The notes under the pieces were generated by a model. That model did no database searches. It worked only from the letters and a program-made list of their open reading frames with translations, and was not told the DNA's origin. A stretch of DNA of 64,000 nucleotides from an uncultured Clostridia bacterium (lineage in GTDB: Bacteria; Bacillota; Clostridia; Christensenellales; Borkfalkiaceae): assembly GCA_944368925.1 (NCBI GenBank), contig CALVXG010000005.1:124001-188000 (forward strand). Direction: 5' to 3'. A program made the translations under genes and the position numbers. Shown here in pieces: positions 29,058 through 33,570 of the stretch. Within the stretch, counting starts at the first letter, position 1, and every line of letters starts with the position of its first letter.

Positions 29058-29615
29058 TCATTTTTTGTTTGTTTCGTCCGTTTTTTCACGGTTCTCCTTC
29101 AACAGATCCCGTATCTGCGCCAACAATGATTCCACCGTCTCTGCGGGTACCTGCGGCTCCGCCGCCTGCGCTTGCGCTGCCTGTTCGGCTGCCGCAGCGT
29201 CCGCCGTCTCTTCCTGCTTTTTCACAAGACGGTTGCGCAGTTCTTCCGCCGTTTCACGCATCCGACGCTGCGCGTTGCGCACGATCCGCAATACCGTAAA
29301 GATCACAAACGCATCGATCAGGAAAGTCAATATCGCCATGATCAGGTTTCCGTAATTGAGCGTGATCGCCTGCGTGATCACTTCGCCCGCTTCGTTCAGC
29401 TCTTCCGCTCGCAACACCACCACCAGCTCGCTGAAATTTCCGTCTATCAACAGGGCAATCAACGGCTTGATAATATCGTTTACAAGACTGTTCACAATCG
29501 CCGTAAACGCCGCGCCTACAACGACCGCTACCGCAAGATCCACAATGTTCCCGCGCGATATGAACGCTTTGAAATCTTTCCAGAATGTGCTCTTTTGCCG
29601 CTCTCTCTTTTTCAT
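29058..29615 (-). CDS. mscL: Large-conductance mechanosensitive channel MscL
   Basis: Pentameric membrane channel that opens on hypo-osmotic shock. The N-terminal amphipathic helix and TM1 ([36 protein letters not shown]) are highly typical, followed by the periplasmic loop and TM2 (around 90-115, [23 protein letters not shown]). MscL is usually about 130-150 residues; here the cytoplasmic tail is extended to 185 residues with an Ala/Gln/Glu stretch and a final amphipathic helix ([14 protein letters not shown]), the part that corresponds to the C-terminal bundle. It follows the HAD gene by 11 bp. Confidence 0.96.
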
Positions 29616-29626
29616 GACTTTTTCTC

Positions 29627-30457
29627 CTATGTATATTCTTTTATATGCTCTGCAATAAATTTACAGACTGCATCTTCCTCCGAATACCCGATCACGCCGC
29701 TCGCCGTCTTTTTCAGCTCCGGCACAGCGTTTTGCACCGCATAACTCTCGTCCGCCATCGCAAACAGCGACCGATCGTTCCGCCCGTCCCCGAAACATAC
29801 CACGCGCTCCGCGTTGAGTATCTCTTTCAGCTTTTTCGCAGCTTCTCCCTTCGACGTTCCCTCCGGCATGATCTCGCACCAATAGTCCGTCCGGTACGTC
29901 TCCTGCTCGTAAATACAGCGGATATCCAGGCTGCTTTCCACTTCCTCATGCAGCTTATCCAGATCTTCTTTCTTCCCGATACAGGTAAAATAAAAGATAT
30001 CCTCGCCCCGAAGCTCTTCACGGCTGCGGATCGGATGCAGGCGCCTGTCGCCCTTCCTGCGCTCCAGATAACGCAAAACCCCGCTCGTCTCTTTCCCTTC
30101 GATCCACGAGACGTGCTCCTCGCCGCCGCAAAACGAATACGCCAGCGGCCAAACGTCAAAGCGTGCAAACAGCTCTTTCAGATACGCAAGCTGCCCTTCG
30201 TTAAAATGCTTGTTGTACAGCTTCTCCTGCGTCGAAGGCTCCATGATCAGCGCTCCGTTGTAGAGAATGACGGGCAGATTCTGCCGTAACCCCCAACACG
30301 CCTTCGCCGCCGAATTCAGCGACCGCGCCGTCGCGTACGTAAATTTGAGCCCCTGCCCGTCGATCATACCGTTCAGATGCTCTAAACTGTATTCGGATAT
30401 CCTTTCTTTCGACGTCAGAAGCGTTCCGTCCAGGTCGGAAATAACCAATGTCTTCAA
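29627..30457 (-). CDS. HAD-superfamily phosphatase, Cof type
   Basis: Sugar-phosphate or phosphate ester hydrolase of the Cof/YwpJ subfamily (class IIB cap). Motif [10 protein letters not shown] lies at residues 7-15 of the chosen protein, motif II is in YATARS, the lysine of motif III in KGEAAKKL, and motif IV is the GDGRND near residue 225. About 276 residues from the TTG start at 30457, which has AAGGG at a suitable distance; the longer frame reads into the promoter. Substrate is not predictable. Co-transcribed with mscL. Confidence 0.88.
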
Positions 30458-30489
30458 TGCAACGAACCCTTCCCTTTTCGCTCCGTCAC

Positions 30490-30518
30490 AGTATACCACA
30501 TCCTTCGCTTTTTTACAA
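30490..30518 (-). promoter_or_regulatory. Promoter of the HAD-mscL unit
   Basis: TTGTAA (plus 30513-30518), 17 bp, TATACT (30490-30495), about 33 bp before the HAD start. Confidence 0.8.
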
Positions 30519-30637: not shown

Positions 30638-31336
30638 TTATGCTTTTTCCTGTCCGAGCAGCGCCCGAATGATCTCTTCCCTGTATTTTGACGGCGCCCC
30701 GTACGCGCGCGGCACGTCACCCTCGGCGGCAATGTCCGCCGCGATCTTTCCGCCTTTCAGAACAACCGCCCGATGAGACAGCATGTACGCTTCCTCCGCG
30801 TCGTGCGTCACGAAGACCGCCGTTCGGTTTTCCTCTTTCCAGAGCTTGCAAAACACGTCGATCAGCCGTATCTTCAACCCCGTGTCCAAAGACGAAAAAG
30901 GTTCGTCCATCAGAATCAGCTCGGACGGATACGCAAACGCCCGCGCAATCGAAACACGCTGCGCCTGCCCTCCCGAAAGCTCCTTCGGATACGCATCCGC
31001 CTTTCCCGCAAGCTCGACCTTCTCCAAAACGTCCATGATCTTGTCCCGATCGGCGTCCTTGCCCAGCACATACCGTATGTTGCCGTATACCGTCAGATTC
31101 GGCAAGAGCCGCTCTTCCTGGAAAATGTACGAGATGCGCGGCGGCACGTTGGAAATCTTCCCCTCGTACGGCGTAAGCGACGCCAGCATGTTCAGAAGCG
31201 TCGTCTTCCCGCACCCGCTCTCGCCCAACAGACAGGTGATCTTCCCGCCCTCGATCTCGAGCGAAAAATGATCGTAGACCTGCGCCTTCGCATAGTTTTT
31301 CCCGATATTCTCCAATCGGATATTCTTCATTTCCAT
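30638..31336 (-). CDS. ABC importer ATPase, nitrate/sulfonate/taurine (SsuB/TauB) type
   Basis: NBD with Walker A GESGCGKT (about 38-45), Q-loop IFQEERLLPNLTV, signature LSGGQAQRVSIAR, Walker B LILMDEPFSSLD and the switch histidine in VTHDAEEA. Start ATG at 31336 (or 31330), overlapping the end of the permease gene, so the two are coupled. The family transports sulfonates, nitrate/bicarbonate, aromatic acids or thiamine precursors; the binding protein in this operon does not settle which. Confidence 0.93.
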   Translation of the reverse strand: MEMKNIRLENIGKNYAKAQVYDHFSLEIEGGKITCLLGESGCGKTTLLNMLASLTPYEGKISNVPPRISYIFQEERLLPNLTVYGNIRYVLGKDADRDKIMDVLEKVELAGKADAYPKELSGGQAQRVSIARAFAYPSELILMDEPFSSLDTGLKIRLIDVFCKLWKEENRTAVFVTHDAEEAYMLSHRAVVLKGGKIAADIAAEGDVPRAYGAPSKYREEIIRALLGQEKA

Positions 31337-32082
31337 CGGATCACCGCCCTGCCGACCAAACGTATCGCCCATTCGCACACCACCGAAAGAATCACCGCCG
31401 CGATCGTGAGCGCAAACAGATCCTGCGTCTCCAAAAGCGCCTGCGAAAAATTCATCATGCTCCCGATGCTCGCCGTCGTATGCGCCAGCGCCTCCGCCGC
31501 GATTACCAGCTTGATGTTCAGCGAAAATCCGCTCGCCGATCCCTCAAACAACCCCGGCGCCATGTTCGGAAGATACAGCTTCCATATCCTTTCCGCCATG
31601 CTCACCCGATACACCGCACTCATCTGCACAAGTTTCGCATCGATCGAAGAGACCGCCGCCGAAAACGACGAGTACAGCGTCGGAAAAATTACGATGATCG
31701 CCACTACCGCGGGCGCGATCTTCGGGTTCAGCCAGATGATCAGTATCAGAATCACCGACATCGTAGGCACCGATCGTATGAACGCAATGAACGGATCGAT
31801 CAGTTTGCGCGCATAGCGGTATCGGTTCGCCAGCAACGCAAAAACAATCGCCGGCACAAAAGAAAATACAAACGAATACAAGGACCGCCACATCGTATTC
31901 CCGATCGCACGCCAAAAGGACGCTTCGCCGAAATAGGCGAAAAACGCGCGAAGCGATTCCGACGGTGACGGCAAAATCAGCGATGCGTTGATCGCCAGCG
32001 CGGCAATCCACCACGCAAGAAAAATCGCCGCCACCACCAGAATCGGAAATATACAGTTGATCAGCCTCTTGTAAACTTTCAT
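31327..32082 (-). CDS. ABC importer permease, SsuC/TauC type
   Basis: 251 residues with six predicted helices and the BPD-type EAA loop (around 160-180, VYRVSMAERIWKLYLPNMAPGL). N-terminal LINCIFPILVVAAIFLAWWIAAL and the pattern LILPSPSESL are typical of the nitrate/sulfonate permease family. It starts 9 bp after the binding-protein stop. Confidence 0.93.
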   Translation of the reverse strand: MKVYKRLINCIFPILVVAAIFLAWWIAALAINASLILPSPSESLRAFFAYFGEASFWRAIGNTMWRSLYSFVFSFVPAIVFALLANRYRYARKLIDPFIAFIRSVPTMSVILILIIWLNPKIAPAVVAIIVIFPTLYSSFSAAVSSIDAKLVQMSAVYRVSMAERIWKLYLPNMAPGLFEGSASGFSLNIKLVIAAEALAHTTASIGSMMNFSQALLETQDLFALTIAAVILSVVCEWAIRLVGRAVIRWK

Positions 32083-32091
32083 CTCAAACCG

Positions 32092-33147
32092 TTATGCGGT
32101 GTATTCGATCCCGTTCTGCTTGAGCAGATATTGCAGCAGCTGTATGGTCGTAGCCGCCGTCGTGTTCACCGTCTTGCCCCTCAGATCTTCCAATGTCTCT
32201 ACACTGCTGTTTACCGCCGCAATATACAGATTCCCGAATACGTGCGTCGAAACGAGCTGAATGTCCGAACCCTTCGAAAAGACCGTCGCCGCGCCGATCG
32301 TAGGCATGATGGCAAGATCCGCATCTTTCTGCGTGTTGAAGATCGCTCCGATCTGTCCCGCAGGAACAATGTGGAAATTCACCGTGTATCCTTCCGGAAG
32401 AAGATCCGCATCCGTAAATACGTTCGCTACCGCCAACGCCGGCGTGCCGTCCGGAAGATAAATATCGACAACCGTATCCGCTACCGCGTCCGCGGCCGCC
32501 GTTCCCGTATAGTAAAAGCCTTGCGCAGGCGCATTCCCGCTCAGACGCTGGATATAATCATCCACCGACGCCTTCACGTCCGCCGCGCTCTGGTAAGAAA
32601 GATTGCAGCGCTCCACCGTCTCCGCCGTATACGTCTTGCCCGCAAGCGTTGTCGTATATCCGTCCGCGTGCGCCGTGTTGTACGCCGCAAGCGCCTCCAC
32701 AAACGAAGTCCTGTTCGCCTCGTCTGCCAGCCACGTACCGTTACCCGCAAGCGCCGTCCCGAACGCCGAAATAAATTCCGTGTTCGACTTTGCAAACGAG
32801 CCGCGCGCAATCAGCGATGCCTGCGGATATCCGTCAAACCCCGTGATCTCCTTCCACTCTTTCTGGAAATCGATCGCCACTTCGATCTGCGGTACAAGCC
32901 CCTGCCCGTTCGTCAGCGACGGCTCACCCAGCACACCGTATGCTTCCGTCTCGTTATTCTGCGCCTGTTGCAAGAGCGCCACGATGTCCGACTCCTTGTC
33001 GTAAGACTGCAAAACGACCGCTTTCTTCTCCGTCGTTCCGTCCGTACCGCCGTTGTCTTCCTTTCCCGTTTCGCCGCAGGACACCACTACCGCCGCCGTC
33101 GCGATCACCATCGCCAACGCAAGCAGAATTGCCAATACTTTTTTCAT
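32092..33147 (-). CDS. Solute-binding lipoprotein of the NrtA/SsuA family with apparently permuted lobes
   Basis: 351 residues with lipoprotein signal and lipobox VVVSC (Cys24). The order of family segments looks circularly permuted. Residues 43-80 (QSYDKESDIVALLQ, GVLGEPSLTN), 92-103 (IDFQKEWKEITG) and 205-214 (NAPAQGFYYT) correspond to what is normally the second half and C-terminal end. Residues 226-351 (LPDGTPALAVA, ADLAIMPT, NLYIA, LRGKTV, LLKQNGIEY) correspond to the normal first half. The protein stops exactly where the canonical chain would cross into the second half. Single ORF, no frameshift, operon context intact. Ligand unknown. Confidence 0.85.
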   Translation of the reverse strand: MKKVLAILLALAMVIATAAVVVSCGETGKEDNGGTDGTTEKKAVVLQSYDKESDIVALLQQAQNNETEAYGVLGEPSLTNGQGLVPQIEVAIDFQKEWKEITGFDGYPQASLIARGSFAKSNTEFISAFGTALAGNGTWLADEANRTSFVEALAAYNTAHADGYTTTLAGKTYTAETVERCNLSYQSAADVKASVDDYIQRLSGNAPAQGFYYTGTAAADAVADTVVDIYLPDGTPALAVANVFTDADLLPEGYTVNFHIVPAGQIGAIFNTQKDADLAIMPTIGAATVFSKGSDIQLVSTHVFGNLYIAAVNSSVETLEDLRGKTVNTTAATTIQLLQYLLKQNGIEYTA

Positions 33148-33200: not shown

Positions 33201-33449
33201 TCAATATTTCGAAAACAAGGTCTTCGCCGAAATTCCCTCGATCATCCCCAGTTTGCCCGTCAACGCGTTGATGACCTCCTGCGGTGCGTCGATCACAATC
33301 GTGTGGACAAACACGTTCTTCGATCTGTACGGAATTCCCATCCTGCCGACAATGTATTCCCCGAATTCGTACAACAACGCGTTCATCTTCTCCGCACTGT
33401 CCATCGATTCGTTGATGATACTGACAACAGCCAACCTCGTCTCCGCCAT
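33201..33449 (-). CDS. TM1266-type putative regulator (iron-only hydrogenase system regulator family)
   Basis: 82 residues from ATG 33449, which is preceded by GGGAGG and seven T. The sequence ETRLAVVSIINESMDSAEKMNALLYEFGEYIVGRMGIP followed by HTIVIDAPQEVINALTGKLGMIEGISAKT is typical of the TM1266 family, small ACT/NikR-C-like domains named from their occurrence with [FeFe]-hydrogenase maturation genes. Here it heads an ABC importer operon, so a ligand-sensing role in that transport system is a reasonable inference. A regulated leader precedes it. There is no hydrogenase gene in the window. Confidence 0.82.
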   Translation of the reverse strand: MAETRLAVVSIINESMDSAEKMNALLYEFGEYIVGRMGIPYRSKNVFVHTIVIDAPQEVINALTGKLGMIEGISAKTLFSKY

Positions 33450-33570
33450 AAAAAAACCTCCCTTTTGCACGCCAAGCAAAAAGGAGGATAAAATTCCCTT
33501 TCCGAAAAGTTCGTTTTGTATCTTCCCTTTTACCGTCGGGCGTACCCTTCGACTCAAGTTTAAATCTGTG
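33450..33570 (-). promoter_or_regulatory. Leader with hairpin that both terminates and hides the RBS
   Basis: About 115 nt between promoter and start codon. The last part forms a 12-bp stem (plus 33457-33468 with 33476-33487) whose 3' arm contains the GGGAGG ribosome binding site and which is followed by seven T and then ATG. Upstream, an AAAAGGGAAGA stretch can compete for the 5' arm. This is the layout of a riboswitch or protein-controlled attenuator. The aptamer class was not recognised. Confidence 0.65.

Follow-up and report, generated by a model that had tools for sequence, protein, structure and literature searches.

The gene at positions 32092..33147 (minus strand) of the window, by which we mean the whole 64,000-nucleotide stretch of DNA analyzed here, raises the question of whether its product has a rearranged chain, and if so, how that rearrangement came about. 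The gene encodes an ABC substrate-binding lipoprotein (SBP) of 351 amino acids, as judged from its open reading frame (ORF) and from PDB and profile searches. Its host is a gut bacterium whose genome groups with Candidatus Borkfalkia, a genus that NCBI places in Christensenellales. The initial annotation of this DNA had proposed a circular permutation in which the second half of the normal chain, standing behind a signal peptide and lipobox, precedes the first. Profiles, canonical relatives, and synteny all bear this out.

A core profile of 305 positions was built from 141 canonical proteins and doubled for permutation-aware alignment. The window protein aligns to it as a single piece (259 bits) that spans 302 of the 305 positions, with its N-terminus at core position 133 and its C-terminus at 129. 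Both canonical parts are nearly whole and are swapped, with the old termini joined by a linker. The signal peptide and lipobox, recognized from the sequence (residues 1-24, with the lipobox cysteine at Cys24; 33076..33147, minus strand), are followed by a spacer between the lipid anchor and the folded part (residues 25-37; 33037..33075). Next comes Block B, the canonical second part (core 133-304; residues 38-212; 32512..33036), which ends with the old C-terminal QGFY. A linker (residues 213-224; 32476..32511) that connects the former C-terminus with the former N-terminus of the mature chain then leads into Block A, the canonical first part (core 4-129; residues 225-350; 32098..32475). The spacer, linker, and both blocks, all on the minus strand, were delimited by core-profile alignment. 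The first 35 codons, containing the signal peptide, align to the start of a canonical gene (L008). The new C-terminus directly follows LLQYLLKQNGIEY, and the chain was opened at a point between a helix and the strand that follows it in the canonical protein. The C-terminus had been expected at the crossing between the halves, but it actually lies within what we assign below as lobe 2, some 40 core positions away from each hinge.

A phmmer search against the PDB pairs query residues 223-311 with residues 3-90 of 3hn0_A, the sole significant match, and a weak second piece pairs residues 168-203 with 227-262 of the same chain, in reversed order. Block profiles seeded with the query and rebuilt on relatives also place B before A in the query (E-values of 5e-45 and 2e-42). 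The canonical family profile matches 3hn0_A over residues 5-278 (E-value of 8.7e-34). This protein, named “Nitrate transport protein” (NMT1/THI5, SsuA-like), has the canonical order, relative to which the window protein shows a rotation of about 130 core positions. The Pfam NMT1 match to the window protein is limited to residues 274-349 (E-value of 3e-4, just above the cut-off), and the NCBIfam SsuA match is limited to residues 288-341 and falls below the cut-off. Because domain profiles detect only part of permuted proteins, similar cases may be missed. The window protein has homology to NMT1/SsuA-like SBPs over both lobes, and it shares with them a lipoprotein signal and an operon with an ABC permease and ATPase, but it departs from their canonical chain order. 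A prediction by AlphaFold2 from a shallow three-sequence alignment gave a pLDDT of 39.7 and a pTM of 0.35. As judged by these alignments, the window protein is a circular permutant of a 3hn0/NMT1-like SBP.

A permuted order, which the initial annotation had suggested seeking in homologues, was found in 69 loci. The genomes searched comprise partly overlapping sets from the genus (40), order (396), family (301), class (391), and phylum (299), and many of them are drafts. Within the window genome, the protein query gives one full match and three more that reach the signal-peptide end only, and the canonical profile finds one distant canonical SBP elsewhere (G000:C4, E-value of 7.9e-15). Among 60 relatives and the window genome, five genomes (G027, G012, G034, G033, and G021) carry a match colinear with the query. 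Permuted relatives at 61-68% identity are present in Ca. Borkfalkia stercoripullorum (L034) and Ca. Borkfalkia avistercoris (L035), with almost no difference between the two copies. An SBP match is present in 37 of the 40 genomes searched from the genus, and all 37 loci were fetched; 30 are canonical, six are complete and permuted, and one (L240) is permuted and cut by a contig end. In this truncated gene (genome G009), about 240 residues precede Block B in frame.

The doubled core profile was aligned to 234 ORFs, leaving 229 unique after removal of five duplicates. Christensenellales contributes 163 unique fetched loci, 69 permuted and 94 canonical. The permuted forms span 13 genera of the order, and both orders occur in 10 of these. 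Outside the order, none of the 66 fetched loci is permuted (58 are complete and canonical, and eight are partial without a swap), and no genome there has two swapped pieces among the matches listed. Because loci in the order were fetched partly by likeness to the permuted query, and those outside were mostly the top matches of the canonical profile, sampling is biased and neither permuted count represents a frequency.

Several candidates for further permutations or copies were rejected. The partial matches outside the order (L200-L204 and L207-L209) contain no moved segment, and L201-L204 and L207 end at core position 304 with no room behind. Three of them (L201, L202, and L203), canonical and from other families of the phylum, carry about 100-190 residues before core 33-42, perhaps a fused or diverged part. 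Early starts, such as that of L088 at core 116, involve positions that lie in the signal peptide. No fetched locus has two family ORFs, against the idea that the permuted gene is an extra copy beside a canonical one.

The 69 permuted loci of the order fall into four breakpoint classes, called P130 (49 loci, with the class including the window protein by virtue of its ends at 133 and 129), P178 (15), P90 (four), and P26 (one, cut after about 25 core residues). In nearly all permuted proteins printed, the junction consists of the old C-terminal strand (DDFFY-like), a short linker (median of 12 residues among 68 permuted proteins), and the old N-terminal strand (VYxPDGAP-like). One protein (L048) is without the FFY motif at this point. 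Lobes were assigned by mean-field co-variation among 226 sequences (209 effective), which provides a noisy map rather than a structure. Forty of the top 50 pairs fall inside the assumed lobes (1-90 plus 180-305, and 91-179) versus 58% expected, giving a p value of 9e-4 when pairs are simply counted as if independent. In addition, pairs 88-183, 87-182, 86-184, and 85-185 are within the top 60 and resemble an antiparallel hinge. A scan of lobe borders scores 70/204 and 88/164 slightly above 86/184, and thus the borders are imprecise. On this reading of the co-variation map, P90 and P178 would cut near the interlobe hinges and P130 would cut inside lobe 2.

The surroundings of the gene reveal where the swap took place. 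Downstream of the SBP gene in the window, all on the minus strand, are genes for an ABC permease of canonical order (BPD_transp_1 by Pfam; 31327..32082), an ABC ATPase whose ORF, supported by Pfam, overlaps that of the permease (30638..31378), a HAD-type hydrolase (29627..30499), and an MscL-like channel (29058..29615). The last two were named by eye and recognized as neighbors from their ORFs and synteny. Upstream on the same strand is a gene for a putative regulator of the TM1266 family (33201..33557), identified by family searches and synteny. We compared 10 genomes of the window genus, five with each chain order. Permease, ATPase, and MscL genes follow the SBP gene in the same order in all 10, the HAD gene is present in nine (it was not found in L261), and the regulator gene stands ahead of the SBP gene in six, with the contig ending there in L260 and L263. 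Because permease, ATPase, and MscL genes flank both forms in all 10 genomes, we conclude that the swap occurred in place.

The same arrangement is visible in DNA alignments. In genus g146, a permuted locus (L066) and a canonical locus (L108) align in four blocks at 71-78% identity, corresponding to the upstream flank, B, A, and the downstream flank, with A and B swapped. Each of 14 further permuted/canonical pairs has swapped blocks and a matching downstream flank, and the upstream flank matches in nine. Two comparisons also gave matches out of register, one in upstream DNA (L041 versus L060) and one of 12 codons (L001 versus L008).

A careful tree of 101 rows, hand-picked from 178 that qualified and aligned with the breakpoint columns left out, contains 20 topology changes, of which 16 are forced by starred (well-supported) branches. 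Its deep branches are partly unresolved, and the 5-95% range among bootstrap trees is 20-22 changes. A quick tree of all 178 rows has 24 permuted/canonical changes, or 26 across all labels. A single clade is rejected both for P90 (all four rows; p-AU of 2.5e-49) and for P178 (seven rows in the tree, of 15; p-AU of 9e-11), and each of these classes is found in two families. The window clade (L001, L005, and L006) is nested among canonical proteins of its own genus. A single origin of this clade and L007 is not clearly rejected (p-AU of 0.058), and L014 and L015 represent a permutation event separate from the window clade.

Among 68 permuted rows, the two halves have their best canonical matches within a single family in 65 and within a single genus in 42; in the window clade, the halves agree on the genus. 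An origin as a chimera of two paralogues is therefore excluded for the window clade, but not for all permuted proteins. The 26 rows whose halves have their best matches in different genera are mostly from g26 (15) and g29 (five), and these genes may be mosaic.

Some changes appear to run in the opposite direction. Two canonical proteins (L142 and L153) sit within an otherwise P178 clade. In another canonical-order protein (L120, from f3 g67), a joined-ends strand and linker precede the first strand, and that strand is absent at the C-terminus. Its 95% identical relative L216 is shorter by exactly this N-terminal joined-ends stretch, which is 60 bp long in L120 and is bounded by 10-bp direct repeats. 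From these sequences, L120 is likely to be a permuted gene that returned to canonical order. The supporting node (99/68) is not starred, and the direction of this change is therefore likely only. At least one topology change in Christensenellales is thus probably a return.

Taken together, we consider it highly probable that the window SBP lipoprotein was permuted in place and that the same gene has changed topology repeatedly in Christensenellales, at four sites. With less assurance, we favor the broader proposal that this gene is a hotspot of frequent and reversible permutation, having switched topology at least 16 times in one order at four sites, including within genera and with one return that left a fossil. 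If this is true, chain order evolves here nearly like an ordinary character.

These conclusions need to be weighed against other explanations. The two lobes of Type II binding proteins, among which we presume the NMT1-like window family to belong, are alike, and a swap might be only apparent if similar halves disguised a normal lobe order. This reading, which the initial annotation had named as what could overturn its proposal, is ruled out by the profile order in 69 loci and is very improbable on other grounds: Canonical relatives of the same genus match the halves of the window protein at 47-68% identity, each half to its own counterpart and in the opposite order, and no similarity of one half to the other was seen among the matches listed. 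It is equally hard to credit an artefact of assembly or binning. Drafts are numerous among these genomes, but several species share the permuted order at 52-68% identity, with complete ORFs, common flanks, and low dN/dS. A nonfunctional, decaying gene is almost as implausible, even though fold and binding are only predicted, because dN/dS is far below one, the operon and lipobox are retained, and the window SBP is the only close family member found in its genome. Values of dN/dS are 0.04-0.34 in nine of 10 permuted pairs (the tenth is saturated) and 0.09-0.14 in three canonical-order pairs, which indicates that both forms are under purifying selection. A simple lipobox pattern picks out 65 of the 69 permuted proteins; the four exceptions are two near-matches, L006, which a contig end truncates, and L066, whose start is mis-set. 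Sequence profiles, closely related canonical proteins, synteny, and low dN/dS support the circular permutation of an SBP that is under selection and, as originally proposed, probably functional.

The route to the permuted gene is a separate matter. We favor, as the likely route, that the part encoding the mature protein was duplicated in tandem and was then trimmed at either end. This retains the idea of duplication and deletion put forward in the initial annotation, but the two-copy gene that the idea invokes is not represented: None of the 264 fetched family ORFs is a two-copy or A-B-A-B gene, leaving the route without its main intermediate. The fossil in L120 is only suggestive as a trace of such an intermediate. 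That same lack of a two-copy gene would suit fission followed by fusion, in which separate half-genes are rejoined in the other order, a route described for other families in the accessible text of one source (PMC3320104). We regard it as unlikely, given that the signal peptide is still in front, that a short linker connects the old ends, and that half-genes standing apart were not noticed among the fetched loci, where no dedicated search for halves alone was made. Slightly less unlikely, though still doubtful, is that the recurrence on trees reflects a few ancient permutations followed by many reversions, or by transfer of alleles between lineages. The apparent reversion with a fossil in f3 g67, the canonical L142 and L153 inside an otherwise P178 clade, and the differing best genera of the halves in 26 of 68 rows would fit this account. 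In contrast, all 58 complete loci outside the order are canonical, and a single clade is rejected for P90 as well as for P178, each class being present in two families. Because a reversion is itself a circular permutation, recurrence stands even then.

Under the favored reading of in-place permutation, our working model is that the window protein, which serves an ABC importer with one permease and one ATPase, is most likely an ordinary clamp-type binding lipoprotein with relocated chain ends, as predicted from sequence. The fold and two-lobe clamp would be unchanged, and the substrate would still be caught between the lobes. The chain ends, and with them the lipid anchor, would have moved from lobe 1 to lobe 2, so that lobe 2 rather than lobe 1 would now be tethered. 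One reason why permutation might be tolerated is the lone permease gene, which implies a symmetric permease dimer; the lobes could dock on it in either orientation. A possible gain is that the lipid anchor comes to sit on the other lobe or at a hinge.

Natural circular permutation is mostly inferred from distant pairs, and the published permutations of methyltransferases and saposins are older. Here, one syntenic gene differs between congeneric species at about 80% identity (g146), unlike in those families. According to the accessible part of one report, permuted DNA methyltransferases and saposin/swaposin proteins are explained by permutation by duplication (PMC3320104). Our literature search for naturally permuted binding proteins, in which subscription journals are thinly covered, returned only one case among the matches listed. 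This is Tp0684 (MglB-2) of Treponema pallidum, a naturally permuted, lipid-anchored ABC glucose-binding protein classified as “Type Ic/Cluster Bc,” which, in the text available from that study, has relatives of like topology in Gram-positive bacteria and is proposed to be adapted to anchoring (PMC4990184). As far as that text describes it, Tp0684 shares with the window protein a natural permutation of a lipid-anchored ABC binding protein, and its fold, a sugar-binding one of Type I, occurs in a single permuted topology. In contrast, the window family is NMT1-like, with four cut sites, repetition within genera, and a probable reversal. None of the six PDB sequences matched at an E-value of 0.01 is an MglB-type (Type Ic) protein. 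In 10 genera, both chain orders are found side by side, at one locus where this was compared and in some cases at about 80% identity, which makes the steps, cut-site rules, cost, and possible gain of permutation directly testable.

The neighboring genes provide several minor observations. A literature search for TM1266 together with an ABC transporter found nothing. Rfam gave no match in the 27-39 kb region of the window, and across 20 loci it returned nothing beyond a T-box in L170 and a truncated tRNA in L154, so that no hint of the substrate emerged. Among 61 SBP loci (59 without duplicates), the permease gene was found in 61 and the ATPase gene in 51, and short flanks lie behind some of the misses. 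The putative regulator of the TM1266 family (iron-only hydrogenase system) heads the ABC operon in 50 of these 61 loci; it was not found in the second group of permuted loci in the genus (L257 and L264). In g28, genes resembling those for a response regulator and a histidine kinase (named by eye) lie upstream of the SBP gene in L252, L253, and L254. Because these two genes stand beside both the permuted L252 and the canonical L253 and L254, they are a further sign that the two forms occupy one locus.
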